A program made the position numbers and the translations under genes. Below, piece by piece: positions 8,519 to 53,799 of a DNA stretch of 64,000 bases (the first letter of the stretch is position 1; each line of letters begins with the position of its first letter). The notes under the pieces are model-generated. The model was given only the letters and a program-made list of their open reading frames with translations. It was not told the DNA's origin and made no database searches. The stretch spans positions 186,001 to 250,000 of the forward strand of contig CAJQUW010011531.1 in assembly GCA_907163375.1 (NCBI GenBank), in the 5' to 3' direction. Source of the DNA: Prostheceraeus crozeri (Eukaryota > Platyhelminthes > Polycladida > Euryleptidae).

Positions 8519-10963
8519 CTACTTGAATGTCTTTAATGCTTGCGAAACGCGTCTTTCCCTAGTAGATGGAAACATACCACAGTCACAATGAAAGCCACAT
8601 ATGATGTTATGGCAACGTCGACGAATTCTCTCAATTTTATTTGATTCTTTATTGTTAAGCGATACAAAAACAGCGGAATTGTATTCAAGTATACCAAGAA
8701 TCATATTATGATAAATTTGTATCAAATCGGCTTTCTGAAGTCCAGAATATTTCTTTAAACGTTTTAAGAGAAAAATACGACGGCTCGATTTTTTACATAT
8801 TGAGTCAACATGCTTACTCCAAGTGAGATCTCCTGAGAAAGTTACACCAAGGCAGTTTAGATGATCAACTTGCGGCATACACAATACGTTAATGATGGGA
8901 GTATTTCGCTTTTTGACAATCATTACTCTTGACTTCTGCTCATTTAATATCAGACCATGAACACGGCACCAGCTTTTTATGTTGGTTGCTTCCAGTTGAA
9001 TGGCATGGTTTACATCATCATTTGTAGAGAAAGGAATTGAAACTAAAACATCATCTGCGTACTTGATAAGCATCGTGTCATTAGAGAATGAGTTTAAGGA
9101 GCCCATGTAAGCAGCAAACATATGTGGTGAAATTATGCACCCCTGAGGAACGCCTGAAGTCACTTGACGGAAATTGCTATTTGCTATATGCTTCACACAA
9201 ACTCGCTGATATCGGTCTTTGAAATAATCTGCTAACCATTCCAGAAATTTAGTTGGCAAATGCTTTGATGTCAGATAAGCAAACAATTTGTCATACTGTA
9301 GGCGGTCAAATGCTCTGCTGAGATCGAATGATATCACTGCCACTCCTGATATATCTTCACGATCCAATTTAGATGTTATGAAGTCGTGTAATTGAATATT
9401 AGCGCATAAAGTCGATGATCCGCGACGAAAACCAAATTGGTTATCACCATACAGGGACAAGAATCTTTCTTCGATTGACATTAGTACGTACTTTTCTAGA
9501 AGCTTTGCCAAAATTGGAAGAACAGATATAGGCCTCAGTTCGTTGACACTGGGATTTGGATTTTTGGGGACAGGGATTACGTTCGCCAATTTCCATTGAG
9601 TAGGAACAACACCTACACTGACGGAGAGACAAAACATGTGAGATACAGGGCCTGATAGTATGCCTGCAGCCTCTCGCAGAAGTCGAGGAGAAAGAGAGTC
9701 ACAGCCTGACGACTTGTTGACTTTTAAAGAGCGTAGCACTTCATATGTCTTTGTAACACTAATATCTGGTAGCCATGGGTCAGTGATGGTTGGAAAGTGG
9801 GACTTAATATCGTTCCAACTTGGTGCAGCTGAAAACACACTCGAGAAGTAGCTGTTAATAGCCTCTGCTGCTGACTGATAATTTGGAAACTGCTGCAGTA
9901 ATTTATCTAGATTAGATCCAGCTTGCGAATTATTTGGATTTTCCGACCTCACAATTTTCCAAACACTACCTTTATTATTTTTCAGATGTTTGGACCAAAT
10001 ATATTTGGCTTTCGTGATCTCTGACTTCACTTTTACTTTATAATGATTGTACAGAGGGAGATCGTTGTTCCTGTAAGCTTGATATCGGCAGTTTATAAGG
10101 TGCTTCAAAAGAGGAGTTACCCATGCTTTGTCTATACTCATCATTTCAACGTACTTGAAAGGGATTTCTTTCAGCGCATCATTAATTATCTTATAAAACA
10201 AATCAGTTTTATGTTGTAACGGTACATCCAGTTTGTAAAAGTAGCTCCAATTAATTGATCTTAAAAAGTCACAGAATCTTCTCACGAATGTCTCGCGATA
10301 ATCATACAATTTGACGATAGATGTACAATATGACTTGGCATTTAGTGGCTTGACAAAAACAGTCGAATGGTCAGCATTGCCAAAATTAGGCCCAATAATA
10401 GCAGGGCAAAAATTTTCTTTCATGTGATTGTCGATAAGAACCTTGTCCAAAATACTTCCTCCTCTTGTCGCTACTTCAACAATCTGCGCTAGTCCCAAAT
10501 TTTGTTCGAGCAAGTCGGTAGGCAATTGATTAAGATCACCCGCGATCATGAATTTACAATCTGCAACATCATCAGAAGCTAGGTCATAGTTAGTGATGAT
10601 AAAGTCAATAATAAGACTGTAATCGGCAGATCTCAAATTCGGGGGTACATAAAGAACAAGTAGAATAATTTCACGCATCCGTATCCAAACACATTCAATA
10701 GATGAAGGAGGAGCTGGCAAATATTTGATTTCTTTGAAATAAATGTCATTACGAATATAAACACAGACCCCTCCTCCATGTCTACCATCTTGTCGATCAT
10801 AGCGAACAGGTACAGAATAGTACGGGAGGTGAATGTTGTTGCTGTCGATGCTAGCGTTCAGCCAAGACTCACAAATTGCGATAATTGATGGCTTGCAGGA
10901 AGATGCAAAAATCGTCAGTTCGTCGATTTTGGGGCGTAGGGATTGAATATTTGTCAGGAACAA
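8519..10963 (-). CDS. LINE ORF2: endonuclease-reverse transcriptase
   Basis: 814 residues, uninterrupted. The N-terminal third is an apurinic-type endonuclease: NIQSL, ICESWLN (catalytic Glu), AGDLNQLP (Asp/Asn), a GGSILDKVLID block typical of CR1/L2 relatives, and ADHSTVFV (catalytic His). The reverse transcriptase follows: RPISVLPILAKLLEK, QFGFRRGSSTL, ISFDLSRAFDRL (motif A), SGVPQGCIISP (motif B) and KYADDVLVSIP (catalytic YADD). No RNase H domain is seen after the thumb. The enzyme would nick target DNA and reverse transcribe LINE RNA at the nick. The first Met lies within the endonuclease N-terminus, so the true start may be slightly upstream. Confidence 0.85.
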   Translation of the reverse strand: MFLTNIQSLRPKIDELTIFASSCKPSIIAICESWLNASIDSNNIHLPYYSVPVRYDRQDGRHGGGVCVYIRNDIYFKEIKYLPAPPSSIECVWIRMREIILLVLYVPPNLRSADYSLIIDFIITNYDLASDDVADCKFMIAGDLNQLPTDLLEQNLGLAQIVEVATRGGSILDKVLIDNHMKENFCPAIIGPNFGNADHSTVFVKPLNAKSYCTSIVKLYDYRETFVRRFCDFLRSINWSYFYKLDVPLQHKTDLFYKIINDALKEIPFKYVEMMSIDKAWVTPLLKHLINCRYQAYRNNDLPLYNHYKVKVKSEITKAKYIWSKHLKNNKGSVWKIVRSENPNNSQAGSNLDKLLQQFPNYQSAAEAINSYFSSVFSAAPSWNDIKSHFPTITDPWLPDISVTKTYEVLRSLKVNKSSGCDSLSPRLLREAAGILSGPVSHMFCLSVSVGVVPTQWKLANVIPVPKNPNPSVNELRPISVLPILAKLLEKYVLMSIEERFLSLYGDNQFGFRRGSSTLCANIQLHDFITSKLDREDISGVAVISFDLSRAFDRLQYDKLFAYLTSKHLPTKFLEWLADYFKDRYQRVCVKHIANSNFRQVTSGVPQGCIISPHMFAAYMGSLNSFSNDTMLIKYADDVLVSIPFSTNDDVNHAIQLEATNIKSWCRVHGLILNEQKSRVMIVKKRNTPIINVLCMPQVDHLNCLGVTFSGDLTWSKHVDSICKKSSRRIFLLKRLKKYSGLQKADLIQIYHNMILGILEYNSAVFVSLNNKESNKIERIRRRCHNIICGFHCDCGMFPSTRERRVSQALKTFK

Positions 10964-11699: not shown

Positions 11700-12372
11700 G
11701 ACAGTTAAAGTTCACAACAGAGATCGCGATTATCTGGGACAGTTTGGCTGTATGGCTGACGTATTGAGAACGTAATTAATTCGCACTGAGATGACGTTGA
11801 TCACGAGATGAAAAATCAATATTTCACTGAAAACGCGATAGCAGCTGATTCAATTGCTGGACAATACCCAAGCCTGCAAACAAGCGAACATGCACTGCAT
11901 CATACGGACGAGGAAGCACTGACGTTTAGATTCCAATTTTAGAATCACTCGCTGTTGCAGGGACACTGCGGAAATCCAATAACCTCAAGAGACCAAATAG
12001 CAACCGAAGTGATGTTTTGAACACTACTCGAGGCCAACAGCGAAAAAATATGCAAAAACTGAGATTGTCTTTAATTGATCCAACCAGGGAGAATGTAAAT
12101 AACACGATCAGAAAGACGACGACCAAAGGAACCAAACGATACCAAACACTTTCACTGAAGGTGACAGAAAACCATCCAAATCATGAAATTTTCACTGATA
12201 TCAGAGAGAGAGAAGAGCGACACAACCAGCACTGACAGACCAATGTTATTGCATTCAACTTTGCAAATGTAACCACTGTGATATTGCTCATTTCGAGTGT
12301 CACTTATGTCGCAATAGTTAGTACCTATGTAAATGTGGTAAAGATAGGTTTTAGCAAAGACTAACACGGAAA
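11700..12372. other. LINE 5' region and resumption of Polinton A
   Basis: No gene with a recognisable product. The 5' untranslated region of the LINE presumably fills most of 11700-12235. From about 12240 the sequence is the leader of the core-protein gene at 12373. Confidence 0.35.
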
Positions 12373-12723
12373 ATGGCGAAACGTAAAAGTCAAAAGTCTT
12401 CAAAGTTTTCTTCAGCCATTCAAGCTCTCCGACGAATGAAAGCAAATCAGCGATACAATGCTATACGACATGCCAACGATAAATTCATTCGTGAAATTAT
12501 TTCTCATGTCAGAAAGTTGAGGACGAAGAAATTAGCGCCAAAACAACGAAAGTTACTTAAGCGATATGCTACGAAATTGCGTTTCATCTCCAATCCTAAA
12601 GTCACCCTTCAAAGAAAGAGGGAAACTCTAACACAAAAGGGCGGTTTCCTTTCAGCAATACTTCCGATGTTAGCTCCTGTCGTGGGTAACCTATTGGGTA
12701 ATATCTTTGGCTCTAAGCGTTAA
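12373..12723 (+). CDS. Basic core/pX-like virion protein
   Basis: 116 residues. The first 90 are very rich in Lys/Arg (MAKRKSQKSSK, RKLRTKKLAPKQRKLLKRY), suiting DNA binding. The C-terminus is a glycine-rich hydrophobic segment (GGFLSAILPMLAPVVGNLL) followed by a basic tail. Polintons and adintoviruses carry small proteins of this build, compared with adenovirus core protein X or the membrane-active segment of protein VI. Expected roles are condensing packaged DNA or disrupting membranes on entry; this is inference from composition. It directly precedes the packaging ATPase. Confidence 0.6.
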   Translation: MAKRKSQKSSKFSSAIQALRRMKANQRYNAIRHANDKFIREIISHVRKLRTKKLAPKQRKLLKRYATKLRFISNPKVTLQRKRETLTQKGGFLSAILPMLAPVVGNLLGNIFGSKR

Positions 12724-12754
12724 TTATGCAAATGTTGAATCTTTAAGTTTTATA

Positions 12755-13372
12755 ATGGATTTCAGACTTCAATGTGATAAAGTTCTGACTGTATCAGGTC
12801 CATTTCATGCAGGTAAAACTGTTTTCACGCTGAATTTATTGGATAAAAGAAGGGAGTTGTTTAAGGAACCTATCAATCGAGTGATTTGGTGTTATGGTAT
12901 TTATCAACCGTCGCTGTTTCAGGAATTGCAAAGTCGCAACTTTATTCGACATGAAGGAATTATTGCAGTGGATAAACTTCAGTCTAATGATGTTGTTGTA
13001 TTGGATGATTTATTAAAAGAAAGTAAGAATTCAAAAGATGTTACAGATATGTTCACTCGTGCAGCACATCATAAAAGGTGTTTTATCATCTATACCACAC
13101 AAAATTTGTCTCCTGATGGAAAAGAAGCTCGTACACGAAACCTGAATACACACTATTATGCTATTTTCAAGAATCCGCGAGATAAAAGTCAATTTGAAAT
13201 TTTAGCGCGACAAGTTGCACCCAGAGGATCAAAAGCCTTAATTGAAATTTTTCAAGCAGCTACTGAAAAACCATACGGTTACTTATTCATTGACTTTACG
13301 CAAGAGTGTCCGGAAGAATTTAGATTTCGAAGTGATATTTTGAAAACTCCCATGATTATCTACAAACTATGA
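12755..13372 (+). CDS. DNA packaging ATPase (A32/FtsK-HerA family)
   Basis: 205 residues from ATG 12755, the first Met after the stop of the core gene. Walker A is VSGPFHAGKTVF near residue 14; Walker B is DVVVLDDLLKES near residue 90. A sensor-like stretch CFIIYTTQNLSP follows with a polar residue before the QN. This is the order in the A32-like genome-packaging ATPases of Polintons and nucleocytoplasmic DNA viruses. It would pump the element genome into a capsid using ATP. The last codons overlap the next ATG (13369) by 4 bases, a sign of compact virus-like organisation. Appears intact. Confidence 0.85.
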   Translation: MDFRLQCDKVLTVSGPFHAGKTVFTLNLLDKRRELFKEPINRVIWCYGIYQPSLFQELQSRNFIRHEGIIAVDKLQSNDVVVLDDLLKESKNSKDVTDMFTRAAHHKRCFIIYTTQNLSPDGKEARTRNLNTHYYAIFKNPRDKSQFEILARQVAPRGSKALIEIFQAATEKPYGYLFIDFTQECPEEFRFRSDILKTPMIIYKL

Positions 13373-14115
13373 GTTCTTATTCTCGCATGATTGTTATTCC
13401 TCAGGATGAATATGTACAATTGACTGCCATGCAGCAAGTAAAGCAACCTCTTGCAAATCAAATGTATAGGAAAGAAATAGATTATCAGCAAAATGTTCAC
13501 ATCAAAGATCCACATCGTGCTGTATTATTACAATCGGAAACTGTTGAGCAATTGAAAAACTTGAAGAATAAGATGCGTGACTCTGTATCGACTGCTACAC
13601 CTTTAGCATCTCGCGCACATGCCATATCTCTTTTCAACAGTATTGAACCCCATCTCAATGTAAATGATAGAGGAGAAATCATTACAGATGAAAATAAAGT
13701 GATTGATGCTTCACGTTATGAAGACTTGATTCAGTATGCGACACGTAGAAAGCGCCGTCAGGGCTATGTTCCACCTGGTTGGTCATACTTTCTTAAACTA
13801 TTGAAAAAGCATAATGTACCAAAATTTGCTTTGAATAATGAGACATTGAAAGAACTTGATTCAACAGTGGCTACTGCTCCAATGCTTCAGGCGATGAAAA
13901 TGCCAACAAATTGGTTTAAGACGTCACCTGGTACATCCCCTCCCACACTCACTAAGCAAACAAGAGGAAGAACTCGACGTAGATCTACATCACCACTAAA
14001 ACTAGTAAAAGGAAAACGTAAAACAGCTCCTCCCAGGAAATACATGTTCTCGAAGGTCGCATTCCAAAAAGAATTCGGAGTGATCAAGGAAAAGAGTTTG
14101 AAAATCAGCATGTGA
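13369..14115 (+). CDS. Conserved-type Polinton protein of unknown function
   Basis: 248 residues, overlapping the ATPase end by 4 bases. A long helical N-terminal half (VEQLKNLKNKMRDSVSTATP) is followed by a central segment DLIQYATRRKRRQGYVPPGW and LKLLKKHNVPKFALNN. The tail is strongly basic and Ser/Pro-rich (TRGRTRRRSTSPLKLVKGKR), suggesting nucleic-acid binding or nuclear import. I do not recognise a named family. Its place between ATPase and integrase/capsid genes suggests a virion or packaging role. No defect is seen. Confidence 0.5.
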   Translation: MSSYSRMIVIPQDEYVQLTAMQQVKQPLANQMYRKEIDYQQNVHIKDPHRAVLLQSETVEQLKNLKNKMRDSVSTATPLASRAHAISLFNSIEPHLNVNDRGEIITDENKVIDASRYEDLIQYATRRKRRQGYVPPGWSYFLKLLKKHNVPKFALNNETLKELDSTVATAPMLQAMKMPTNWFKTSPGTSPPTLTKQTRGRTRRRSTSPLKLVKGKRKTAPPRKYMFSKVAFQKEFGVIKEKSLKISM

Positions 14116-14120
14116 GATGA

Positions 14121-14744
14121 TTATTTGAGAGGCATGACATTGAGTTGTTTAGTGTAAAGAGTGCTTATAAAGCTGCACTCGTTGAACGTTTTAATCGCAC
14201 ATTAAAAAATCGCTTGTGGCGACGTTTAACTGCCAACTTGACACAAAATTGGACAAAGGTTCTACAAGATACACTCCATGCCTACAATCACTCTATCCAT
14301 CGTTCTATTGGACTCAGACCAGTAGATGCAAATGCTGACAATGTAGATAAAGTGCGCGAATCATTCCAACGTAAACGCACTCATGTGAAAAGTGATGTGA
14401 AAATTGGTGATAAAGTTCGTATCTCAAAAGTGAAAAGTGTTTTTGCTAAAGGGTACCTTCCGAATTGGACAGAGGAGGTAATTACAGTATCAAGGATTGA
14501 TCAAAAAGACTCTCCGACCACCTATAAGTTGAAAGATTACGATAATGAAGAAATTGAGGGTAGCTTTTACCGCGATGAGATTGAGGTAGTCACTGAAAGT
14601 GAAACATATTTGGTAGAGAAAATCATTCGATGTAAAAAACGGCAAGGTGAAGAATGGTGTCTTGTTAAATGGACTGGTTATCCTTCAAGTATGAACTCTT
14701 GGATGCGTCGTGCCGACATCTTTCATCTAAGTGATCGACAGTGA
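14121..14744 (+). pseudogene. Retroviral-type integrase, C-terminal half only, with chromodomain
   Basis: The frame opens after a TGA at 14118-14120 and starts inside the catalytic core just before the third catalytic residue (Glu in LVERFNRTLKNRLW). The first two catalytic aspartates and the zinc-binding N-terminus are missing and are not found elsewhere in Polinton A. The SH3-like domain follows (KIGDKVRISKVK, WTEEVITVSRI, GSFYRDEIE). A C-terminal chromodomain comes last (YLVEKIIRCKK, WCLVKWTGYPSSMNSWM). Chromodomains steer integration to modified histones in chromoviruses. Half the enzyme is lost, so this copy cannot integrate itself. A removed upstream exon cannot be excluded, but no donor site is visible. 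Confidence 0.8.
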
Positions 14745-14785
14745 TTCATGCAAAGTTGTAACTAACAATGTTTAGGGTTTGAGCT

Positions 14786-15242
14786 ATGAATCCAACTGCC
14801 TCATTTTATTCACGACCCTCCTATGTAAGTGGTGGAGGACAAATTTACATCGGCGCTCGCCGCCAACGTGGAGGTAGCATACTTGGTGCACTGAAATCTG
14901 TTGTAGCACCTCTCATATCCAATGTCGGTAGATCTTTAAAACGAAATGTTTTAAGTAATGCCGTTGGCTTTGCTGGTGATGTTGCTAGTGATCTTTCCAG
15001 AGGTAGAAGTTTTAAGAGCAGTTTGTTGAATCGTGGGAAGGAAGGCGGTTTAAAAAACATTGAAGCAGACCTTTGCTGGTGTTACTCAAGGAAAGAAATC
15101 ACCTAAACGAATGAAAAAAGGAAGGAGGAAACATCGCGGAGCTGGTAAGGTGCGATCTTCAGTCAAAAGGCATTCACGCAAACGTCGCAGAGGCTCTAAT
15201 CATTCATCAGGCGCTAAACGACGACGCTGCCATAACTTCTAA
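14786..15242 (+). pseudogene. Minor capsid/core protein (pVI/pVII-like), frameshifted
   Basis: The first part (14786 to about 15060) has YIGARRQRGGSILGALKS and a hydrophobic/glycine stretch (LISNVGRSLKRNVLSNAVGF) like adenovirus VI/VII-type Polinton proteins. Near 15060 the frame changes. The next open frame carries a very basic tail (RMKKGRRKHRGAGK, SVKRHSRKRRRGSNHSS) ending TAA 15242, three bases before the capsid ATG. The combined length of about 150 residues suits the family. The order core protein then major capsid then protease is typical. Confidence 0.55.
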
Positions 15243-15244
15243 TC

Positions 15245-16522
15245 ATGGAGTGTAAAACTTCCGGTTTTTGTTTGTTCGATCAACAAGCCATACAGACAGA
15301 TATTCTTAGTTCAAGTATTGTAGATTATCATCCTCGAACAGCTGAGAATGCTGGCCCCATTGAATTTGTTATTCCTGGTGGTAGTGATGACTACATAGAT
15401 TTGAGTTATGCGATGGTTGATTTGAGGTTTAGAATTCAGCAAGCAGATGGAACTGCTATTGACGATACACATAAAGTTGGACTGAACAATTTACCATTGA
15501 CTACATTACTTCGTGATGTTTCTCTAACGATTGGAGAGCAGCAGGTGGAAGGTGGTCAAAGCGATTATCCCTATAAATCATATTTCAATCATGTATCACA
15601 GTTTCATCCAGCAGCACAAAAAAGTCATATGGAAGCCATGGGATGGTACAGAGATGAAGCAGGAAAATTTGATGTTGAAACAAACAGTGGCTTTGTAAAG
15701 CGATCTGCTATGATTAAAGATAGTAGAGTATGTCAGCTATATGGTCCGCTGAATTTAGACTTCTTTAGACAGTCAAAGTTTTTACTCTGTAATACCAGCA
15801 TGCGACTCAAGCTGACATTGAATAAGCCTGAATTTGCGCTGAATGCATTTGCTAAAGTTGACAATTTTAGAATTCATGTGGAAGATATTGCACTTTACAT
15901 TCGTCGAGTAGTACCGAATCCAAGTGTCATTAGAGGACATGCTGAAGGTCTTAACCGCCAAAATGCCATTTACCCCGTTCAGCATACAAAGCATCTCACC
16001 TTTACAATTCCGAAAGATCAAAAGAGTTTCATGAAAGATGGCCTCTTTCCATCGGAAGCACCGAAGCTCCTCATGGTGGCAATGGTTGAAAATGATGCAT
16101 TTAATGATAATATAAAGAAGAATCCTTTCAATTTTAAACACAATCAGTTAAGTGAAATTGCTTTACGTGTAAATGGTGTGAGTCATCCTGGTCCACCCTA
16201 CAAACCAGATTTTGCTTCGGATCAATTTATGCGCAGTTATGTTGATTTTATGGATGTCTTTGGCTTTTACAATACGGATGACACCAACGGACTCACTATG
16301 AAAGAGTTTAAGAGAGGATATACTATTTATGCATTTGATTTTACTGCTGACAGCGATATTAGTGCCCCCTATCGTCAAGCGAACGTGCCTCATAATATTC
16401 GTTTGGATTTGACGTTCAAAAGAACACTACCTGAGACGATCAATGTATTAATTTATGCAGTCTTCGATTCAAATATTGAAATTACAAAGTATCGTGATGT
16501 GATTCTTCAGTATAATCGTTAA
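15245..16522 (+). CDS. Major capsid protein (double jelly-roll, hexon-like)
   Basis: 425 residues, uninterrupted. The pattern is that of the Polinton major capsid family (the proteins often named after C. elegans F54H12.2). Beta-strand blocks include IEFVIPGGSDDYIDLSYAMV near residue 45, LPLTTLLRDVSLTIGEQQV, YGPLNLDFFRQSKFLLCNTS and SMRLKLTLNKPEFAL. The C-terminal end is ITKYRDVILQYNR. Trimers of such proteins build icosahedral shells. The stop overlaps the protease ATG (16522), as expected of a tightly packed virion operon-like block. No disrupting mutation is seen. Confidence 0.85.
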   Translation: MECKTSGFCLFDQQAIQTDILSSSIVDYHPRTAENAGPIEFVIPGGSDDYIDLSYAMVDLRFRIQQADGTAIDDTHKVGLNNLPLTTLLRDVSLTIGEQQVEGGQSDYPYKSYFNHVSQFHPAAQKSHMEAMGWYRDEAGKFDVETNSGFVKRSAMIKDSRVCQLYGPLNLDFFRQSKFLLCNTSMRLKLTLNKPEFALNAFAKVDNFRIHVEDIALYIRRVVPNPSVIRGHAEGLNRQNAIYPVQHTKHLTFTIPKDQKSFMKDGLFPSEAPKLLMVAMVENDAFNDNIKKNPFNFKHNQLSEIALRVNGVSHPGPPYKPDFASDQFMRSYVDFMDVFGFYNTDDTNGLTMKEFKRGYTIYAFDFTADSDISAPYRQANVPHNIRLDLTFKRTLPETINVLIYAVFDSNIEITKYRDVILQYNR

Positions 16523-16929
16523 TGAGTTGGTTGACTGCTGACGATATTAAGACTAAAGTGAAGCGTAATGCAGACGAAGCGACGTTGAAAGCTTTCGATA
16601 ATGTCTATTCACTCGATACCTTACCACCTGCAGTAAATCACTATCCCATCTTTATTGTGCTAAACACTCATTCGCAGAATTTAGGCGGTGAGCATTGGAA
16701 AGCGATCTTTATTGGAGAAAACCGACGTGGTGAACTATTTGACTCTCTTGCTCAACCTCCAAATATACCAACACAGCAGTGGTTGAGAAAACATACGCGT
16801 CAATATCAGCGAAATGAACGCATACTACAACATCCACTTTCACTTTTGTACTGTACTTCATCTCGATTTGTATCTGTTATTCAAAAATTTTCATGTAATC
16901 CATCCTCTAATGAAAAAAAATGATTTGTA
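16522..16929 (+). pseudogene. Adenain-like (Ulp1-fold) cysteine protease, frame lost at the catalytic Cys
   Basis: The start overlaps the capsid stop. Catalytic His and Asp are visible: GGEHWKAIFIG (His near residue 57) and GELFDSLAQPP (Asp near residue 73). After QHPLS (about 16840) the annotated frame loses the family pattern. One frame over, from about 16844, a cysteine-containing stretch continues in register to TAA 16927-16929. The frame therefore slips by one base exactly before the catalytic cysteine region. Adenain relatives mature virion proteins. This copy should be inactive. Polinton B encodes an intact counterpart at 49240. Confidence 0.65.
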
Positions 16930-16978
16930 AGTTCTATCATGATCTGAAATAAAAACATCATGTTGGAAAAATTGTTTT

Positions 16979-17845
16979 TTATTTTACAATCCGCTGGATG
17001 CCTACATACTCGACGAGATAGTCTAGGATCACATTTGCTTGTACATGAGATTTTAGTCCAGTAATGATCACTTTACTATTATGAAAGATTGCCACATGCA
17101 CAGGTAACCAACAACTAATGAGAGCTGCAGGAAAAAGTTCGGGTTCATAACACAAATTGTAACTGCTGGTGCGAATCTTCAAAAATGATACACTGTCACT
17201 CAATTGAGTAGAGATCACCATATTGTCCACAGTCAGATTCGGCATCACACACCTCTCCCTCTTCCATATCCGACGTAGTAGTCTCTGTAGCTCTAAGCGC
17301 ATTGACTGCGCCGATGAATGAGAAAGGGCGCCGAGAATCTGTACAGTCCCATTTGGGAAGAGTTGAGGATTCCGTGAATTGTTCATCTTCACCACTAACA
17401 TTTGAGGTCGGCCCGGGTAATACTTGCTGTTGGGAAGGTGTTGGTGTAATGTTGCGAGATCGATTTTGGTGTAGAGTCTGAAGCGACGGAGAATGTTGAC
17501 GATGGTGTAGCGAGGCGCTTCATGATGAAAAAATGAGTAAATTGAGCGATGTACCTTCCTTTTATACTTTTCCCAACTACCTTGATGAAATGTGAAGTTA
17601 GTATGAAGTTGGGAATGATAGAGTTGAATTCGCCGATTGTTGACGCGCAGCCAGATGCGATTTCCAATACGTGAATGTCTTTTCATATAGAAGTATTTCA
17701 AATCCTTCATGATATGATGTAGAGATTGAAAATGACGATAAGATAAAGCAAACTCTCTTCTCACATTTCAAGTTGAATCTTTGAAATAGACGTTTCGATC
17801 ATGATCCGTTTCAATACGTTGTAGGGAATCTAATTTCCAACTCAT
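16979..17845 (-). pseudogene. PC4-like domain fused to TATA-binding protein (TBP); one in-frame TGA
   Basis: Read from ATG 17845 on the minus strand: 288 codons with a TGA at codon 26 (17768-17770). Codons 1-110 align without gaps to the neighbouring PC4-like protein. The TGA lies exactly at a glycine codon of the paralogue, so one base change explains it. From about codon 112 the protein matches the two-repeat saddle of TBP. Repeat 1 has TIVNILRRFRL, LFPNGTVQILGALSHSSAQS. Repeat 2 has VDNMVIST, CYEPELFP (17129-17149) and VAIFHNSKVIITGLKS. Three of the four DNA-intercalating phenylalanines of TBP appear kept; the first (in NPKRF of cellular TBP) is not. Predicted role: element-encoded promoter recognition. 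Lies between protease and a divergent virion gene. Confidence 0.75.
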
Positions 17846-17867
17846 GGTGCGTGGTAGTCATGTCTGA

Positions 17868-18236
17868 TTAAGATTTGCATAGTAGGGCGATGAACTCACG
17901 ACGAATAAATGTCATGATGGAGCGATGTATGTATCTTCTATACTTCTCCCAATTGTATTTGCGAAATGAGAAACAGTTTGCGGAATGAGAATGGCAGATT
18001 TGAATTTCATTGTTGCGACGTTGAAGCCAAACTTGATCACCCAAGGAGATGAATCTTAATGTTTCAAAATATTCCAAATCCCTCATGATATCATTGAGGT
18101 TGACAAATTGTCGCCATGTTAATGTAATACCTCTTGATGAATGACCATGAGAATTTTTGAAATGTACGTTTCCATCACGATCAACTCTGATATATTGTAG
18201 AGAGTCCAAAATCCAAGTCTTCATGATGTTATGCAA
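17868..18236 (-). CDS. PC4/p15-like single-stranded DNA-binding coactivator homologue
   Basis: 122 residues, intact. It contains two half-similar blocks: YIRVDRDGNVHFKNS with GITLTWRQFVNLNDIM, then SLGDQVWLQRRNNEIQI with WEKYRRYIHRSI. The arrangement of beta strands, then a G-I-x-L turn and a helix resembles the C-terminal domain of transcriptional coactivator PC4. The resemblance is moderate and no search was run. It is 22 bp upstream of the PC4-TBP gene on the same strand and clearly its tandem paralogue, ending where the TBP part would begin. It is divergent from the virion gene at 18260, separated by only 23 bp. Confidence 0.5.
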   Translation of the reverse strand: MHNIMKTWILDSLQYIRVDRDGNVHFKNSHGHSSRGITLTWRQFVNLNDIMRDLEYFETLRFISLGDQVWLQRRNNEIQICHSHSANCFSFRKYNWEKYRRYIHRSIMTFIRREFIALLCKS

Positions 18237-18259
18237 AGTCGCAGATCAGCAATATAAAA

Positions 18260-19657
18260 ATGTCGTTTTATCATATTTTGCTTAGCAATGCGGCTACAAA
18301 GAGATTTACTAGTAATCGAGCCGCACTCTTTTCTACTCCCATTGATCATACACAACAGCTAAATGGAAATTGGGAAGTGGGTGTCACTCAACTTGTTTAT
18401 AGCAACTGTGTCTATACTTTTGATCATGAGGTGATGACTATTGATATGAGACGCACAGCTGCTTACCAATGTGAAAAGGGCTGCCGAGTATACATTCCAC
18501 AGTGGCCAAAGGAAGATCTCTTATCATGTAAAAAGTTTATATATGATTTCTTGAATAAAGCGTGTAAACATATCATCCAATTTACTCCGCACAATGATGA
18601 TTATAATTATGTACATCATGTAGTTGAGAAAGATTGGATCGTTGGTTTAAGTCCAAGTTTAAGAAATGATTTAGGTAACCTCGCTAGCGCCTTAACAAGA
18701 TATGATAATTTTAACGTTAATTACCACATAAGTGGTCATAAACAGTTAATATATCGAGAGGAAGCTTATTATGTAGATCTTATTCCAAGAAATGAGAAGA
18801 CGTTGGTGAAGAAGATTGTGATTAAGGCAAGAAAGACAAACATGACTCCTGAAACATTATTGAAGAAATTTAATTATCTCCTTCGAGTTGATGGCAAACA
18901 AGTGGCAACATTGACTCATATTAAATCATCTAATCATATTGCAATAAGTAAATTAAATGATGATGATCTAGTATTAGTTTGTTCAAAAGATTTTCATCAG
19001 TTCATACGACATCATTCTGCAGCTGTTCATGGAAAATTTGATATGCAACATTTACCATGTGAAAGGTCAAATCAATTTGATACAGAATGGACCGTATCTT
19101 TATACAGAAAGTGTGTAGAGCCTTTAGGTGGTATCTTACATGAAACAAGAGTGTTGATGCCTCGCATTATTACTTCGGTTAAATTGGTTGTAGATTATTT
19201 AAATGAAGTGATTAATGAGCAAAATATTTTATTTTCTGAAAAAGAAGGTGTTTTGTCTCTTACTATAAGTGGAAAAGGTATTGAACTAATTATGGATAAA
19301 ACTCTAATGGACATTTTGGGTTTTGATCAAAATATCTTTAAAAGTGGTACTGTAACCAAAGCTAGCGCAGACATGTCGCTATCGCGTCGTATTAACTATT
19401 TTCAGATATATTCCAATATTGGTGAAGATGTACGTGTGGGAGATGTTGAAGCTCCATTGCTAGCAATGATACCATACCAGCCAAAAAGCTGCAGTATTTT
19501 ATCTGAGCATACTTTCAAGAAAGTGCATTATACAAAGCTGAAATCAAACTACATCCCACAAATTGATATTGCAATTTATGACGATGCTGGTGCGTTGATT
19601 CCTTTTCATAAAGATGCTGTGACAGGTATCACACTCCATTTCCGAATGAAGAGTTAA
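18260..19657 (+). CDS. Conserved Polinton virion protein (penton/fibre candidate), copy 1
   Basis: 465 residues, intact. The N-terminus FYHILLSNAATKRFTSN with LNGNWEVGVTQLVY is the hallmark of a large structural protein found in most Polintons (a short strand, then L-x-G-x-WEVGL-type motif). The C-terminus has VGDVEAPLLAMIPYQP and IDIAIYDDAGALIPF then GITLHFRMKS, also characteristic. The family is thought to form vertex or surface structures; the exact role is unproven. The short divergent intergenic region (18237-18259) contains AATATAAAA close to the ATG. It is followed 9 bp later by a paralogue. Confidence 0.65.
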   Translation: MSFYHILLSNAATKRFTSNRAALFSTPIDHTQQLNGNWEVGVTQLVYSNCVYTFDHEVMTIDMRRTAAYQCEKGCRVYIPQWPKEDLLSCKKFIYDFLNKACKHIIQFTPHNDDYNYVHHVVEKDWIVGLSPSLRNDLGNLASALTRYDNFNVNYHISGHKQLIYREEAYYVDLIPRNEKTLVKKIVIKARKTNMTPETLLKKFNYLLRVDGKQVATLTHIKSSNHIAISKLNDDDLVLVCSKDFHQFIRHHSAAVHGKFDMQHLPCERSNQFDTEWTVSLYRKCVEPLGGILHETRVLMPRIITSVKLVVDYLNEVINEQNILFSEKEGVLSLTISGKGIELIMDKTLMDILGFDQNIFKSGTVTKASADMSLSRRINYFQIYSNIGEDVRVGDVEAPLLAMIPYQPKSCSILSEHTFKKVHYTKLKSNYIPQIDIAIYDDAGALIPFHKDAVTGITLHFRMKS

Positions 19658-19666
19658 TGCAAAAGT

Positions 19667-21215
19667 ATGCTAATATATTTTTCCAATGTGAATAATAGGG
19701 AAAGTGAAAATAAGGACTCGTTTCTAATCTACTTGCCCAGTAATGCTTCTATGAATAAATTTCCCAAAAATAAACCATCAGACTATCGAGTAGAATTAAA
19801 TCGTCCACTACATTTAGAAGGTGAATGGGTGGTTGGCGTTTCTAGTATTTGCTATGACAGCAATATTCAGAATGTGAATGATTTGGAAGAAATGATATTG
19901 ACTCCTCGCACCCATGATGGAATAACGATGAATAATGCATTCCAGTTCCCATACAATTTAACATCAGATGGAAAGTGGAACTATGAATGGATTCAGATAA
20001 AATCAGATTATTATGAACCATTTGGGAATGAGAAAATTATTAAGGCATTCAGTAGTGGTAATACTTCCATCATGAAGAATAAGGATCAGAAAGTTTATGA
20101 GTTTACTATCTATCATTGGAGTGGGAGACAGTTCCTTCGCTTTCATTCTTTTACTAAAGGTCTTACACTGAGGTTGGATAGTGAATTCTATCCACATCTT
20201 GGTTTTGGTCATGGACTACATCTAACGTCAATTGCTACTGCAAATGTTAAAAAAGTTTATTCAAATCGAATCAACAAATTTCATTATAGATTTAAAATAT
20301 TTGATGACGACGTTGTAGAATGCGAAGAACGCATCATTTTGAAAAAGCGTGGTGTTCAACCTTTATCACTTATTGAGTTAGTAAAACGATGGGATGAGAC
20401 TGTGGGTAAGAAGTATGGAGAGAAAATTATGGCGGACAAAAATAAGTTGGTTATTCAGAAATATAATGACAAACTTACAGTCTATTTCTCTCCAACCTTG
20501 CGTCATTTTGTAAGACATTATACACCTATTATTGGAAGCGGTGTGGTGTATGGTTCTCATGAATATCACACTAAAGCTGATTCAGTTAATGATGAATGGT
20601 GGGTGGACATCTATGGTGATCGCATCAAGAAAATTTACCAGTCTTACGAAGAATCGAAAGTTGCTATCAATATAATGCCGCGTCTATATCATACAGTTGA
20701 AAGCTTCATTCATGTAGTAAATCCTTATATACAACAGAAGTTGAAGCATGTGATGAAAAGTAAATATGATGTAGACACACCACATTTCGTTTTCAATTGA
20801 AAATCAACGCGTTGTTCTGAAACTGGGCGATGACATTCAATGTCAATTGAGTAAAAATTTGAAAAAACTCTTTGGTTTTTCAATGCTACAAACTGTGTTT
20901 ACTGCTGCGCATACGATTGGTATAGAAACACCAATGGCACTTGATAAACATGAAAAGCACCTTTACATTCAAAGTGATTTGATTCTACCTATTTCTGTTG
21001 GTGAGAAAAAAGAATACATTTTACGCGATTTCATTCATGATAAAGACGCTTCATATGGAATAGTCGAGAAGATGTTTGAATCTATTTTCTATCATCCCGT
21101 CGTCAAACAAACTATGCCCTCTATTGCTATCAAAATTACCAATGGTTTACAAGAGTGCATCCATGTGAAAGATACTAAATCCCTCTTAACTTTAGTGTTT
21201 CGGAAAACAAAGTGA
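19667..21215 (+). pseudogene. Conserved Polinton virion protein, copy 2 (frameshift near 20800)
   Basis: Shares with the preceding gene the N-terminal FLIYLPSNASMNKFPKNK and LEGEWVVGVSSICY. It also shares the block FVRHYTPIIG (copy 1: FIRHHSAAVHG), so the two are tandem paralogues. The first frame stops at 20800; the family sequence continues one frame over (KLGDDIQCQLSKNL onward) to 21215, so one indel near 20795-20805 breaks it. Copy 2 matches the canonical LPSN motif better than copy 1, suggesting copy 1 diverged after duplication. Last plus-strand gene of the element. Confidence 0.6.
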
Positions 21216-21395
21216 AGTCATTGTGATATGTTTATTGAAATAAAAATATGTATATGAAAAAGTCTTTTCACAGATATAGGGGGAATGAGCTAACTGTAGG
21301 CATATATTCACAAGGAAGAAACGATCTCATGCGATACATAAAACAACCATGTATATCTACAAAAAGCAACATCAAAAATACTGAGTTAAAGTTGA

Positions 21396-24300
21396 TTATG
21401 TCAATACATCTCCTGAATGTGGTAGCGTGAGTTTTATTCTTTTGGGTGGAGGTATGTTTGTGTCAGGATGTTCATGTGGAAGAGATGTGTTATGTCCTAT
21501 CCAACACCTCTTATCTTCCCATGCTGAAAGTGCTCGTTTCTTGAACGTGTACGTTTTCACAGTATGAACTTGAGATTTTAAGATTGTCATATTGACAAAC
21601 GTTATAGTTTTATTTTTATAGGCCTTCTTATAGGACCGATGTTTCATTTTGTGAACAATGGATTTTGATATACCTTTACCACGCTTAATACTATCTGCAC
21701 ATCCTTTAAAATTCATGGAATACATTTTAGGACGGAGGAGAATCATTTCATCTATTTCCTTTCCTGCTGTTTCATCCTTAAAACAACCAAGTTTGGCTTT
21801 ATTCTGTATGGAATAGAGTGGATGAGTGGGATTGTAGTTAGATGTGTCGAACTATTTTTCTAATGACTTGCCTACTTCATTAAAATTTAAATCTTTTTGA
21901 GTGGTAATTCCTAAAAAGAAACTATCTGTATCACCACCCAGCAAGCCAACCTCTTTTACGAGAGGGCATGGTTTTAATATTTTGTAGAAGAGTTGATACA
22001 TTTCAAGCTTGGAATAATCTAAAACGGCTTGCCCAATATAGATGGGTTTGCACAACTCAACTTCTGATTTTATCATTTTAACACCTACAAGATCCTTATC
22101 GATGATGTCTCTATCAATGAAAAGAGGTGATGAGGTCAATTTGTGATATTTTTGTTCATCAACGACTAGTTTGTAGTTCATACGTTTTCTAACATCCTCC
22201 ATGGTCTTTCCGAAAAGACTGTTATTCTTATATTTATAAAAATCCTTTTCAAAATTATTTTGGGCGAGTGCACGTTTTTGACTGTTACTATCTATGTAGG
22301 GTTTGAGGAAGGCTTTCTGTCTAAATTTGATAATGCGTTGAACTGACTTTAGAAGCATGCCCATTTCTAAATAGAATTTTAGTATGCAGAAGTGTACGAG
22401 ATAATTTTTCTTATCGTATTGGGTGAGTAAAAGTTTGCGGCATGGTTTGTACCTTGGCTTTCCACACTCTGTTAAGTTATTATGAAATTGTGACATGAAT
22501 GGTGAAAACATATCTTCAGTCACTTCACCAGATTCAGGTGCGAGTGGGAAATCAGCAGTTTTATTTTTAATGCTATTTGGATAAATCAAATCCACTTCAA
22601 AATAATATCCCCAATCACCTTCATCTGGAATCTTCAGTATGTTTGAAGGGTTGGAGTAATACTCAAGCTCATCTTGATTTAACCAACTAAACTCGGAATG
22701 AGGTAGTGGTTTAGACAGTGAACTGCCATATAAATTATTTTGGTCATAGTACTTTAGGTGGATATGATCATCACCTACTGTTTCAGATTTTATATGATGT
22801 TTATTTACAAATGTGAGACCACCGCGTATTCCGCGCTCAAATATGTTATACATCTCCGGGTCTTGTAAGAGATGAATGGTCTCACCAGTCATTTTAAAGG
22901 CTGATTTAAAGGACATGGCTGGTAGACTGACAAAGTGGACAGGATCTAATTTGTCTTCTTCTAATGCCACTCGTCGAAATTCCTGAAAGACATCAGCCAG
23001 CAAAATGACATCTAATTCTAAGTAAGCGATCATATAATCGCCAAACGTTTTACAATCAAATTTTAACAATGCCTCTTGAGTATGTTCATAATCTTCTACT
23101 GGACAATCTTCACCCGTCAAATCGTTTTGGAATTTGTCAATGGAAGGAAGGGTTGTTTCATTTAGTTTAGATATTGAGCTAAAATACGCATAAGGAAAGA
23201 CTCCTTTGCGAGTGATTATTTCATCCGTTAAGTTTGGATAGTGTTTCTTCAAAGTTTAACTATGGGGAAGAAACTTCAGATTACGAACGAGAGAAGCTAG
23301 TGACGCTGACATGAATTGGAATGAATCTAAAAATTTTACTTCGAAGAAGACTGTCTTATTTTCTTTAGTTTTATCTACTGGTACTTTTGCTGTCATTGAC
23401 ATGAATTTTTCTCTCGTTTGCGCTATTACATTAAACTGCCACGATTTCATCTGGCTCAACCTCCTTTTATGAGCATATGACTGTCATAGCCCTTAAAGTT
23501 ATGAAAAATGACGGGTAGTACGCGACGTCTCAACCTATGTGAAAAGTTACATTTGGAGCAGAGTGCGTTTCTAAATTTACCAGTAATGTGATCATGATCA
23601 CGCAATTTCTTGATTTTATCGTCATCAAACGCTTTATGACATTTAGGACAGGATGTGCAACTTTCAAATTTTTGTTTGTCTTCATCTGACATATGTAGTG
23701 ACTTACGCTGCAATTGGGAATCATATGATTGTTGAAATTTAGCAGCTTTATCGAGAAATTCTAGAAATTTTGAAATGCAATCTTCACCTTGCCAAGTATG
23801 CATTTTGTTTTGTCTATTCCTAAAGTGGTCATGCCATACTTCATAGCAGGATATGGCTGCTGGCTTGTGGATGATATCATCAATGTAGCATTCTATGTCT
23901 GCGTAAATGACACGCAGGGGACTTAATTCGTCACCATTTTCCCTATGTGAAAATATTTTATCTTTGGGCATGCGTTCCATTTGTAATTTACCTCGCTTGC
24001 ACCATTCATAGTGAGTTTCAAATTCATCTTTACTCCAAAAGGAGCGGATGCAGCGGTCGCATACAAAATGTTCACCTCTTTTAGAGTGCCCCAAGTGAGT
24101 GTACAAGCGAGAGATTTTGGGAATACCACAGTAGTGCCATTCCTCGCTATCATCTTGTTTTACTAATAAGAGGTTGACTACACGTTCATAACAAGTTGAA
24201 CGTGAATTATAGCGGGCACCCTTCAACCCCTTCTCCCACACGTGAACGACAATTTTAATCTTATTATGTTTTTCGAACGTTTCTACATCTTTGATTTTCA

Positions 24301-24751
24301 TGTTGTTACTATCACAACCTTCAAAGTCTAGTTCATCCTCCCACTGTCTATAGCTATAGGTGCGATCTCGGTGCGCGTTGATATCATTATAGTGAAGGAT
24401 GGATAGGACTGCATATTTGAAACACTGTGATTTACAATCGACATTGATGACAGCTTTCTTATTATACAACGTTTTTGGTAGTTTGAATGTGCCTCGAGCT
24501 GCATGACTTTCTAATAGTGAAATTTTGAATATGGCTGAGTCCACGGCATCAAAAATGAGAGCGCTGTCGCGTTGATTGAATTTATCTACATTTGATTTTA
24601 AACATTGAAAGTGAAAATTGAAACATTGAATGTGACAAAGTGAGGCTGGCAGTGGAAGAACGATTAAAGCAAGTGAACTGTTTTTGTTATCTATGTGAAG
24701 CCAGACTCTGGGACGATATTGACGATGAAGACCTTTTGAAATACATGCCAT
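21396..24751 (-). pseudogene. Protein-primed family B DNA polymerase (Polinton PolB), multiply broken
   Basis: About 1,100 codons from ATG 24751. N-terminal part: CKSQCFKYAVLSI with a later HYCGIPKISRLY, a Cys/His domain often preceding Polinton PolB, then a CDRCIRSF...H...C zinc motif. Exo I is VIYADIECY; an endonuclease VII-like insert follows (CPKCHKAF, LRDHDHITGKFR, CSKCN); Exo II is FHNFKGYDSHML; Exo III is YLELDVILLADVF. Polymerase motifs: YYDQNNLYGSSL (A), KNNSLFGKTMEDV (B), GGDTDSFFLG (C). Breaks: a frameshift near 23457, an in-frame TAA near 23248-23250 and an in-frame TAG near 21849-21851. The C-terminal piece ends after SAWEDKRCWI. It would replicate the element from protein-primed ends. 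Confidence 0.85.
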
Positions 24752-25555
24752 AATAAATTTTTATTTCGTATTATCTTTGCTTTCATACTGACTTACTTGA
24801 ACGGGGCTTCAGTGGATGATTTAACCATGTATACTTTTTCATTTGGAAATAGTACCACGCTTAGTCTAACTTGTAAATCTTATAACATTCCATATTGGCG
24901 ATGATGGTAGATGAAATAGTGTTAAATAAAATTAAGATGGCTTACACTTCTGATACAGGGATAGCAATCGACTGCGATCCATGTGTAAAGAGCTTGTTAG
25001 ACTACGGATGGGCTTAAGTGGATGATTTAACCATTTATACTTTTTCATTTGGAAATAGTAGCACACTTAGTTTAACTTGTAAATCTTAAAACATTTCATA
25101 TGGGCGATGATGATAGTTGAAATAGTGTCAAATAAAATTAAGATAGCTTACACTTCTGATGCAGGGATAGCAATCGACTGCGATCCATGTGTAAAGAGCT
25201 TGTTAGACTACGGAAGAGAGAAGTGTGTTATGTTGCGTGTGGCGCGTGAGTGTCCTCCCATTTCATTCCATTCATCAATTCGTCTCATTGATAGAGACAG
25301 GTAGAACTCATGGTTCCCATAACGTATGCAATGGAAAGTTTTAGGCAACCTTCGACAGTTGGCTAAATGTCGCCCTGACGCGAATGCATACTACGTTGAG
25401 ACAGAGGCAATCACTTGCAAACATGACGCAGAGAGGTTAAACAAGATTGACCATTGCCGAATGTCCCTTGCGGTATACATAGGTACGGGTTTCACCGCCG
25501 CCCTTTACAGGAACGCCCGTCGAAAGGAAGTATTACACCGAACTTCATTTGCAAT
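24752..25555. repeat. Tandem duplication of ~205 bp beyond the PolB start
   Basis: 24812-25013 and 25017-25218 are near-identical, each with GATGATTTAACCAT, CATTTGGAAATAGTA and the tail CAGGGATAGCAATCGACTGC. That tail recurs at 26060, so the family is dispersed in this arm. A 137-codon plus-strand open frame from 25326 runs into the 140-bp cassette and has no family signature. No convincing gene here. Confidence 0.6.
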
Positions 25556-32269: not shown

Positions 32270-33606
32270 CATAAAAAGCGTGCATAAATTTAAAGTAGCA
32301 TAACTTTCTAATTATACAACAGAAATTAGCAAATAAGGTCTGATTTTGAAGCCAATGTACATCTTTATTACCATAATCAACATTGCAATGATTACATCTA
32401 AGGATGAGAGTATAATGTACATGCAAAGCAGAAAAACTCGAAAGCCAAGAAACTATGTGAAAAGAAAAACGACTGAATGGAATAGAAAGCCTGCTTCCAA
32501 TTCTTCACTTAAACGATAATCATCATGGCGAAGTCTTGCTGCAAATAATCACACAACATCAATTGGGTGATGACTGGATCAACCTTCAGCAGAAACGCCT
32601 TGCAACCGAACTCCAGAAATTTCGTATTTTCCGGTTTTATTTCTTCCAAAGTCTCAACGTCTCTTCCAAGTTGAACTCCTAACATTTTCATTTAGAAAAA
32701 ACGTCATCACACTTACTTTTGACCATTAAACTACATTCAATGTGTTCATGATCGATCATTGAGCTCTTCATCACGGGATCTCTTTAGCTTAAGAAATAGG
32801 CACTTTAAACATCGTTTAATTAACTTTTTTCTCTCTACTGAGTTGTGACATAGTCAGTGACAAAATTGAACAAAGATTTCCAGCTATAGGCCCGACTGTA
32901 ATTACTTCTCATTCTAAATTTGAAATTCTATTTTCATAGATAGCTCATAGATAAGTATATGCAAATTATATTGTTTTTCTAATGAAAGCCACATGATGCT
33001 CTGAGCATTGATTTTTATATGAAAAATATCTTCCCTAAAGACATTTGATTCAATCTAATGATCCCTTTATGTACCTACAAATATCCAGTATTGCATGATT
33101 GAAATGAAAGCTGTTTGGTCATCTGCAACAATGGTGAAAGACTCTACCATGATGAATAGCATATAAGTGAAGAATTGGAAGCAGTAAATGAAAATGTTTG
33201 GGATTTAGCATGTAGAGACGTTGAGACTTTGGAAGAAATAAAACCGGAAAATACGAAATTTCTGGAGTTCGGTTGCAAGGCGTTTCTGCTGAAGGTTGAT
33301 CCAGTCATCACCCAATTGATGTTGTGTGATCATTTGCAGCAAGACTTCGCCATGATGATTATCGTTTAAGTGAGGAATTGGAAGCAGGCTTGCTATTCCA
33401 TTCAGTCGTTATTCTTTTCACATAGTTTCTTGGCTTTCGAGTTTTTCTGCTTTGCATGTACATTATACTCTCATCCCTAGATGTAATCATTGCAATGTTG
33501 ATTATGGTAATAAAGATGTACATTGGCTTCAAAATCAGACCTTATTTGCTAATTTCTGTTGTATAATTAGAAAGTTATGCTACTTTAAAATTTATGCACG
33601 CTTTTT
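32270..33606. mobile_element. Foldback-type element with ~430-bp inverted arms
   Basis: 32270-32696 and 33184-33606 are near-identical inverted copies. Each arm contains an open frame reading RDVETLEEIKPENTKFLEF and LLKVDPVITQLMLCD. The outer ends are ATAAAAAGCGTGCATAAATT and its complement. A 490-bp unique AT-rich middle separates the arms. The motif AAAAAGCGTGCA at its ends also borders the tyrosine-recombinase direct repeat at 31369-31380. The arm-encoded peptide is not recognised and may be captured host exon sequence. Confidence 0.6.
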
Positions 33607-33889
33607 ATTCCGCACCCTGTATTACAATGCAACTGTGAGCAGGTTTGAATTCCATGTCCATGAATGTCCATGGCCGTTCTCGTCCTTAATTATTATAGTG
33701 TCGGATTTCTATGGTGTCATACATTGACTATGATCGGTGTCCACGATCATTATTGTTACACGCTTTGTCAACATCAGTGATGCGCTTTTAGAGTTTCAGT
33801 TTATCACTTGACAATTGATGCTAAAAGCGGAATTCCTATCCATACAAATTGTTACACAAAGGGGTGTCATGCGTGGATTGCGACAAAAC
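33607..33889. other. Short unassigned spacer
   Basis: No gene seen between the foldback element and the second LINE. Confidence 0.4.
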
Positions 33890-49239: not shown

Positions 49240-49701
49240 ATGAGCAACATAAATGAGTTTTTGAAATTATATGGAACACAGACAACAACGAATTTCGACC
49301 TAAAGAAAATCGCAAATGAATTAGGAATAAAGAATTTTCACATATTGATGAGGGATGAATTACAATTCCTAAAAAATAGGCCAACAGGAACCTTCAGTTC
49401 CCGGAACAAAGTTCCATCAATAACTGTAAATTTCATAACGAATCTTCACACTTCAGACCAAAACGGCGTACATTGGTCAGCAGGTATCTTTAGTAAAAAC
49501 GGAGATAATTATTATTTTGACTCATACGGGCTTCCACCTACAAATGAAGTAAAAGAATTACTTGGAACGGGAACATACAATACGTTTCAAATTCAAACAC
49601 CAGGCACTACTTATTGTGGACAATTATGTCTTTATGTTTTATTTAAATTACAAAAAGGAGTACCATTTCTAGATATTATGTTAGAGTTAAACAATCTATA
49701 A
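49240..49701 (+). CDS. Adenain-like cysteine protease, intact
   Basis: 153 residues. The catalytic triad is readable: His in NGVHWSAGIF (near residue 87), Asp in YYFDSYGLPP (near residue 102), Cys in TTYCGQLCLYVLF (near residue 131). This matches the Ulp1/adenain protease that matures Polinton virion proteins. Two GC mini-hairpins (49387-49401, 49403-49415) lie inside the coding sequence, at the segment GTFSSRNKVPS, without breaking the frame. It converges on the integrase gene, 34 bp apart. Confidence 0.8.
   Translation: MSNINEFLKLYGTQTTTNFDLKKIANELGIKNFHILMRDELQFLKNRPTGTFSSRNKVPSITVNFITNLHTSDQNGVHWSAGIFSKNGDNYYFDSYGLPPTNEVKELLGTGTYNTFQIQTPGTTYCGQLCLYVLFKLQKGVPFLDIMLELNNL
49387..49415. repeat. 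GC mini-hairpin pair inside the protease gene
   Basis: GGAAC-CTTCA-GTTCC (49387-49401) and GGAAC-AAA-GTTCC (49403-49415), back to back. Confidence 0.7.
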
Positions 49702-49735
49702 CTCAAGCGAAGCTAGCTAAAGCGCCACCTAAAGG

Positions 49736-51007: not shown

Positions 51008-51081
51008 TTTAAAAGATAAAAAAAAATTAAGAAGATAAAAAAAAATTGTTTTACCGAAAAGAACCAAAGGTCCTGAGGTTA

Positions 51082-51609
51082 TTACCGAATCATACTAGGA
51101 CTTAGATATATTCCAGAACCATCTTTAGTTTCTTTAATTTCAATTAAATCATCAACATTGTGGAGAATATTTTTAAGAACTCGTTTTCCTTCATCAACTA
51201 ATTTTAATTTACTAATAAAATTATCTACTACTCCTTTTCCTTCGGGCGAAGCCCTGGAAGACATCTCCGATGCCCCTTCTCCCCTAGCAACTTTCTCTAA
51301 CTCCCTATTATGACGTTTTTGTTCTTCTAATGCTGCCTTCTCTGATTTATTTTTATTTACTGCTTGGACAATACCAGCTGTTCCACCTGCAACACTTCCT
51401 GCAGCTGCTATGCCACCTATTATTAGTGGAATTAATGGGAGAATCCCGCCATTCTTTTCTTCTTGTAATTGAATATTCTCTATCATTGGTTTACTTATAT
51501 AATACTTTTTTTTGTTAATCGTAATAGTTTTAGGGGTATTTTTGTCAACAATATTACGTAATTTTAATTCAACAGTTTTATTATTAATATTACTTTTCGC
51601 TTGCGACAT
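51082..51609 (-). CDS. Minor capsid protein (pVI-like, membrane-active segment)
   Basis: 175 residues. The centre is a hydrophobic glycine-rich stretch (GGILPLIPLIIGGIAAAGS) leading to a helix ending in NKNKSEKAALEEQKRHN, the typical build of Polinton pVI/pX-like proteins. In adenovirus the related protein lines the hexon cavity and disrupts endosomal membranes. A 27-bp GC repeat (51243-51269) encodes SEMSSRASP here and occurs in the same frame in PolB. Lies between integrase and major capsid genes on the same strand. Confidence 0.65.
   Translation of the reverse strand: MSQAKSNINNKTVELKLRNIVDKNTPKTITINKKKYYISKPMIENIQLQEEKNGGILPLIPLIIGGIAAAGSVAGGTAGIVQAVNKNKSEKAALEEQKRHNRELEKVARGEGASEMSSRASPEGKGVVDNFISKLKLVDEGKRVLKNILHNVDDLIEIKETKDGSGIYLSPSMIR
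51243..51269. repeat. 27-bp GC repeat with mini-hairpin, copy in minor capsid gene
   Basis: Exact reverse complement of 56605-56631; contains GGGC-GAA-GCCC (51244-51254). Confidence 0.85.
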
Positions 51610-51746
51610 TTTTAATAAAAAATTTTAAGTTAAGAATTTAAAGTTATCAAAAAATTTAAATCTATTCTAGTTATGAAAAATTTTTAGTTAAGAAATTTTA
51701 AGTTAACAAAAATTTTAATCTATTCTAGTTATGAAAAAAATTTTAA

Positions 51747-53742: not shown

Positions 53743-53799
53743 TTTTTAGGATTGAATTTGACTTTTGGGAAAAATATCTACGATCGGCTAAAACCTCGA

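Follow-up and report, generated by a model that had tools for sequence, protein, structure and literature searches.

Polintons are ~15-20 kb long, and elements of that size are generally taken to rely on the host for transcription. Genes for the TATA-binding protein (TBP) are known from larger viruses; in the parts of the published reports that we consulted, TBP occurs in 59% of mirusvirus genomes versus 0% in Nucleocytoviricota (PMC10132985), a megavirus TBP adjoins the RNA polymerase genes of that virus (PMC11464507), and CpV-BQ1 carries one TBP and two TFIIB, which are thought to redirect the host polymerase (PMC12085832). Giant viruses and mirusviruses are large, and some have their own polymerase or TFIIB genes, whereas the element described here spans at least 12.4 kb. 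It shares a double jelly roll (DJR) capsid candidate, an adenain-type protease, a chromodomain integrase and a type B DNA polymerase (PolB) with Polinton/Maverick elements and adintoviruses; its TBP and an overlapping PUR-like gene set it apart from them. In those parts of the open-licence literature that we consulted, we found no description of a TBP or of an overlapping PUR-like gene in a Polinton, Maverick, adintovirus or virophage, and an earlier description is possible.

The window is a stretch of 64,000 nucleotides from the genome of Prostheceraeus crozeri. Besides the element with the TBP, it contains a second, different Polinton (49240-60875) with an adenain-like protease, a DJR capsid protein (PF21738 3.5e-19) and an intact 1510-aa PolB ORF; no TBP match was present among the seven ORFs scanned in this second element. 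A genome-wide PF00352 search recovered TBPs more divergent than copies of the window's family (F1), of which we read three, L080 from family F2 and two from family F3, L081 and L082. The features of the TBP-bearing element in the window are as follows.

12755..13372, plus strand: candidate for an FtsK/HerA packaging ATPase (Walker A motif GPFHAGKT by eye; weak AAA_14 match, 0.047; in 10/10 copies)
14145..14744, plus strand: C-terminal part of the integrase, with chromodomain (Chromo 2.2e-7, rve_3 0.0029; BLASTP 3e-32 to the second integrase; 5' part outside the ORF)
15245..16522, plus strand: major capsid protein (MCP) candidate, double jelly roll (DJR-like_dom, PF21738, in 3/29 aligned sequences, the best at 5e-4; no match for the sequence from the window itself)
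16522..16923, plus strand: adenain-type protease (BLASTP 4e-6 to the protease of the second element, a single-comparison value; in 10/10 copies)
16979..17512, minus strand: TBP coding frame with both saddle repeats and stop codon (in most sampled copies the start lies upstream, at TBP's own ATG)
17196..17523, minus strand: overlap, in normal copies, of the PUR2 C-terminal tail (~110 codons) with TBP repeat I in another frame (approximate in the window copy)
17513..17845, minus strand: folded part of PUR2, PUR/PC4-like gene 2 (TGA at codon 26, 17768-17770, in the window copy; open in other copies)
17521..17523, minus strand: position of the ATG that belongs to TBP (not in frame with TBP in the window copy; in frame in 21/30 copies sampled blind to the junction)
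17868..18224, minus strand: PUR1, PUR/PC4-like gene 1, a paralogue without TBP overlap
18260..19657, plus strand: ORF465, divergent from PUR1 (a relative at the same place in F3)
19667..20800, plus strand: ORF377
21852..24751, minus strand: PolB of Polinton type, here in two ORFs (C-terminal piece BLASTP 8e-64 to the PolB of the second element; N-terminal piece Endonuclease_7 6.2e-6)

The gene set contains several hallmarks of a Polinton/Maverick: a DJR MCP with moderate support, an RVE integrase with a chromodomain, an adenain-type protease and a Polinton PolB that is putatively protein-primed, recognized by its homology to the second element's intact PolB ORF. The window's MCP candidate aligned to the MCP of the second element using hhalign (4e-6, probability 87), and its longest match is 96-99% identical in ten other copies. 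These ten 9.9-kb copies were drawn from the list of unfused junctions described below; in all 10, TBLASTN matched the ATPase, integrase, MCP, protease, TBP and PUR-like genes (in L073, PUR2 has its longest match to the paralogue), in agreement with the first-pass annotation, which had assigned the TBP to a Polinton. The end of PolB, where the 9.9-kb stretches stop, is present in 7/10 copies. In family F3, an MCP (54% identical), a protease (39%) and a relative of ORF465 adjoin the TBP. In the protein database, the source-contig sizes 7106 and 5810 (≥5 kb) were common to TBP and MCP matches (expected 0.08, P 0.0025; 49 TBP matches and the 120 of 240 MCP matches listed); three sizes were shared overall, the third of which, 2041, was between matches of different sources. 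Among the matches listed, PUR-like and MCP proteins share contig sizes 12876 and 11119. The TBP matches P0015, P0017, P0018, P0021 and P0035 come from metagenomic contigs of 15-25 kb. An inverted repeat spanning the element was not found between 10000 and 40000 in the decayed window copy, and no relatives were found in the viral-contig or genome-contig databases, from which records near the window's genome were possibly left out. ORF465 and ORF377 (18260-20800) are maybe paralogues of each other, as the ORF465 query matches the ORF377 place of L070 (21% identity, 3e-13). The window's family has two PUR-like genes (17868-18224 and 17513-17845). The F3 stretch read in L081 shows one PUR-like ORF, flanked immediately by TBP on one side and by the relative of ORF465 on the other, so PUR1 may have arisen by duplication.

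Both repeats of a TBP-like saddle, as read by eye in the first-pass annotation, were recovered by profile search: PF00352 matched two stretches at 68.1 bits, against a curated cut-off of 22.9, and the structure predicted for the element TBP has the saddle fold. We used MAFFT to align 51 TBPs (the window's, 48 of 52 protein-database matches, F2 and F3), leaving out P0004, P0026 and P0038, which are PUR-like and have no TBP domain, and P0052 (29% identical, 4.9e-4). Residues F52, F127, F143, E123 and E125 are invariant in 51/51 TBPs, which confirms the earlier count of three intercalating Phe kept out of four. The fourth position, which is Phe in the host TBP, is occupied by Pro in 50 of the 51 and by Gln in the remaining one, such that the full set of four found in a canonical TATA-box-binding TBP is reduced to 3/4. 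In yeast numbering, we take the kept Phe to be 116, 190 and 207, the lost Phe to be 99, and the acidic residues to be E186 and E188 of the TFIIB contact. The element TBPs have 24-29% identity to the host TBP piece, in a partial comparison that covers repeat I and a small part of repeat II.

The element TBP shares the two-repeat saddle, three intercalating Phe and acidic TFIIB-facing residues with eukaryotic and archaeal TBPs (PF00352); however, it differs from them in the replacement of the N-terminal-stirrup Phe by Pro or Gln, in being encoded by a mobile element and in sharing its coding sequence with a second gene. The TBPs of giant viruses and mirusviruses are likewise virus-encoded, and giant-virus proteins named TBP are among the best BFVD matches; the top BFVD match is an unnamed 189-aa viral protein with 22% identity. 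Because the TFIIB-facing Glu and three Phe are invariant and the fourth Phe is replaced, the alignment fits a TBP that would still meet TFIIB yet read DNA differently. The element TBP is thus a natural TBP variant without one intercalating Phe, and it may bear on the origin of viral TBPs. Elsewhere in the same genome, C3829:151570-151938 also matched the TBP profile (best 1.0e-14, one stretch, internal TGA), with a score above those of the Polinton copies.

The N-terminal part of the window's frame had been called PC4-like and a paralogue of its neighbor. The paralogy stands, the neighbor being PUR1, and the predicted fold is of a single-strand DNA binder type; PC4 matches to the PUR-like protein were absent in Pfam and PDB sequence searches, and PC4 proper was rejected as lacking sequence support. 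More broadly, the PUR-like proteins had no significant sequence match to the single-strand DNA binders PUR-alpha, PC4 and Whirly. Foldseek with the PUR-like model returned nothing at E≤0.001, and the match of this model to a PUR-type fold was obtained in the VIA second look. Single-strand binding is a property of PUR and Whirly proteins. PUR2 of the element differs from PUR-alpha, PC4 and Whirly in its long tail, which is overprinted on TBP.

According to the first-pass annotation, 16979-17845 encodes a single PC4-like/TBP fusion protein. The window copy is instead frameshifted and contains a stop; its apparent fusion is decay, with a stop in the PUR-like gene and TBP cut off from its own ATG, and in the usual state two separate genes overlap, each in its own frame. 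We searched the assembly from which the window comes (2.05 Gb, 14,165 contigs) with the fused query, which matched 146 scored places; this set is biased because a fused query puts fused copies on top. The eight best fused copies (L001-L008, window included) reach the joined frame by seven different indels, with one shared by L002 and L003. The unfused 28-base junction exceeds that of the window by one base and was counted at 2840+2703 = 5,543 genome sites (≤3 mismatches), against 2930+2784 = 5,714 sites for a TBP repeat II marker; the host genome is large, and copies of the element number in the thousands. We also sampled 30 copies by the repeat II marker, blind to the junction; these were the first by contig among zero-mismatch places, and the sample therefore favors young copies. 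The longer, unfused junction is present in 29/30, and TBP is in frame with its own ATG in 21/30. A TBP ORF of 175-190 aa is kept in 21 of these copies and the overlapping tail in 23, with both full-length in 18. Pairwise difference among the 30 copies and the window has a median of 2.3% and a maximum of 15.1%; because the median is this low, the family looks young.

The two-gene arrangement was characterized in 30 loci picked by the unfused junction (L009-L038). The TBP ORF is exactly 181 codons from its own ATG in 21/30, and in 24/30 the PUR-like frame stays open for 110 codons beyond the junction and ends near YGDLYSIE. The complete PUR-like ORF is then ~216 codons, and database proteins P0004 (216 aa) and P0026 (222 aa) have the same long form. 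In the divergent families, TBP identity to the window's is 42% (L080) and 43% (L081), and the PUR-like ORF overlaps TBP by 341 nt and 308 nt, respectively, in the same relative frame; in L082, the second F3 copy, the PUR-like ORF is in pieces. For one copy per family (L013, L080, L081), we held the TBP protein fixed and shuffled synonymous codons 2,000 times. The open second-frame lengths of 108, 112 and 101 codons were reached in 0, 0 and 2 of 2,000 shuffles, whose mean open lengths were 17, 16 and 9 codons, and the second frame closes past the overlap, with 7-8 stops. As synonymous shuffles so rarely reach the open length, both frames are probably coding. Tail similarity between F1 and F2 and between F2 and F3 exceeds all 2,000 shuffles; between F1 and F3 it is weak (value reached by 85/2,000). 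The PUR-like tails have in common an FSF..A...L motif and an acidic end. Thus, evidence from the sequences is strong for overlapping genes and weaker for conservation of the tail between F1 and F3. A general transcription factor gene that doubles as coding sequence for the tail of its probable partner would be unusual overprinting on a very conserved fold, and it is kept across families at 42-43% TBP identity. In all three families, the PUR-like start and the TBP start are separated by several ATGs, which makes leaky scanning to the TBP ATG unlikely and suggests a separate TBP transcript.

Two readings of this arrangement depart from an overlapping pair. The chance that the fusion is a genuine, selected single protein appears slight, and this idea is largely refuted: a ~292-codon frame runs through both parts in most of the 146 scored matches, some with internal stops, and 4/30 junction-blind copies read >200 codons N-ward of the marker; however, those four do so via other indels, the fused query itself ranks fused copies first, the eight fused copies compared use seven different indels, the window copy has an internal stop, and the common junction is unfused, as are the divergent families F2 and F3. 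We dropped the fusion as a functional unit on the junction counts and the divergent families. Scarcely more credible is that the overlap codes for TBP alone, with the open second frame a by-product of TBP codon use. The F1-F3 tail similarity is not strong, which would agree with this; the similar numbers of junction-blind copies with an open tail (23/30) and an open TBP (21/30) do not separate the readings. Against it stand the open length in three families and its near absence from the shuffles, the stops in the same frame after the overlap, and the F1-F2 and F2-F3 tail similarities with their common motif.

Computation shows a TBP profile and predicted fold, gene overlap, presence in three families and linkage to capsid genes. 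On balance, we favor the reading that two overlapping genes of a Polinton/Maverick-type lineage encode a divergent TBP of its own and a tandem PUR/PC4-class protein, with the TBP recruiting host machinery. With its acidic TFIIB-facing motif and three Phe but no fourth, the element TBP would bring TFIIB and RNA polymerase II of the host to those promoters of the element that are poorly read by the host's TBP. The PUR-like protein would assist in melting DNA or in holding single strands, and TBP would probably be translated from its own mRNA. The overlapping TBP gene hints that the elements bring their own transcription-start factor, which, as proposed earlier, could free late genes from host TBP supply. 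It is unlikely, though worth weighing, that the element TBP serves as a decoy, sequestering host TFIIB or other partners of TBP and depressing transcription of the host instead of initiating the element's own. Invariant acidic residues that presumably face TFIIB, combined with a missing intercalating Phe in 51/51 TBPs, would suit a decoy; however, the other three Phe, which we assume to intercalate DNA, and both saddle halves are strictly kept, as expected of a DNA binder. A role for both proteins in genome replication or packaging, bending DNA and holding strands, seems more improbable still: the PUR-type fold match and the single-strand binding of PUR and Whirly proteins speak for it, but conserved acidic residues of the TFIIB type would then lack a reason to persist. 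Because this Polinton lineage has a TBP of its own, the timing of virus-like element genes becomes directly testable.

A more specific form of the transcriptional reading is tentative, and we consider it possible rather than probable. A TBP with a rebuilt N-terminal stirrup and a PUR-like strand-binding partner, encoded by overlapping genes, would form a self-made initiation switch. This switch would redirect the RNA polymerase II of the host away from TATA and toward promoter words of the element such as TATGCAAA, and within each family the promoter and the TBP would co-evolve. The candidate promoter motif ATGCAAA lies upstream of the following starts in the window.

12726..12732, plus strand: ATGCAAA at -29 of the ATPase ATG
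14748..14754, plus strand: ATGCAAA at -38 of a 106-aa ORF at 14786
17874..17880, minus strand: ATGCAAA at -35 of the PUR2 ATG
18231..18237, plus strand: ATGCAAA at -29 of ORF465
19657..19663, plus strand: ATGCAAA at -10 of ORF377

This motif was first spotted by eye. It occurs six times on both strands of 12240-25000. Thirteen starts were tested, and five of the occurrences lie on the sense strand no more than 50 nt before one of them; when all 7-mers were considered, the best attained five in 2/5,000 random placements and in 0/1,795 shifts. ATGCAAA is absent at matching places upstream of F2 and F3 genes, and we rejected it as a lineage-wide promoter despite its enrichment in the window's family. 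Each of the three families has a TATAAA 43-46 nt before the ATG of TBP; this is expected by chance (625/5,000 permutations hit all three), and a TATA box for TBP's own gene was set aside.

The window has further features. Within the second Polinton, an ORF on the minus strand (49736-51067) joins a phospholipase A2-like domain (PF08398 2.2e-7) to an integrase core (PF00665 1.4e-8). An inverted repeat at 32271-33608 has arms of ~425 nt that are 97% identical and ~490 nt apart. Beside the TBP-bearing element, an ORF on the minus strand (8519-10963) resembles, by eye, a non-LTR retrotransposon endonuclease/reverse transcriptase.
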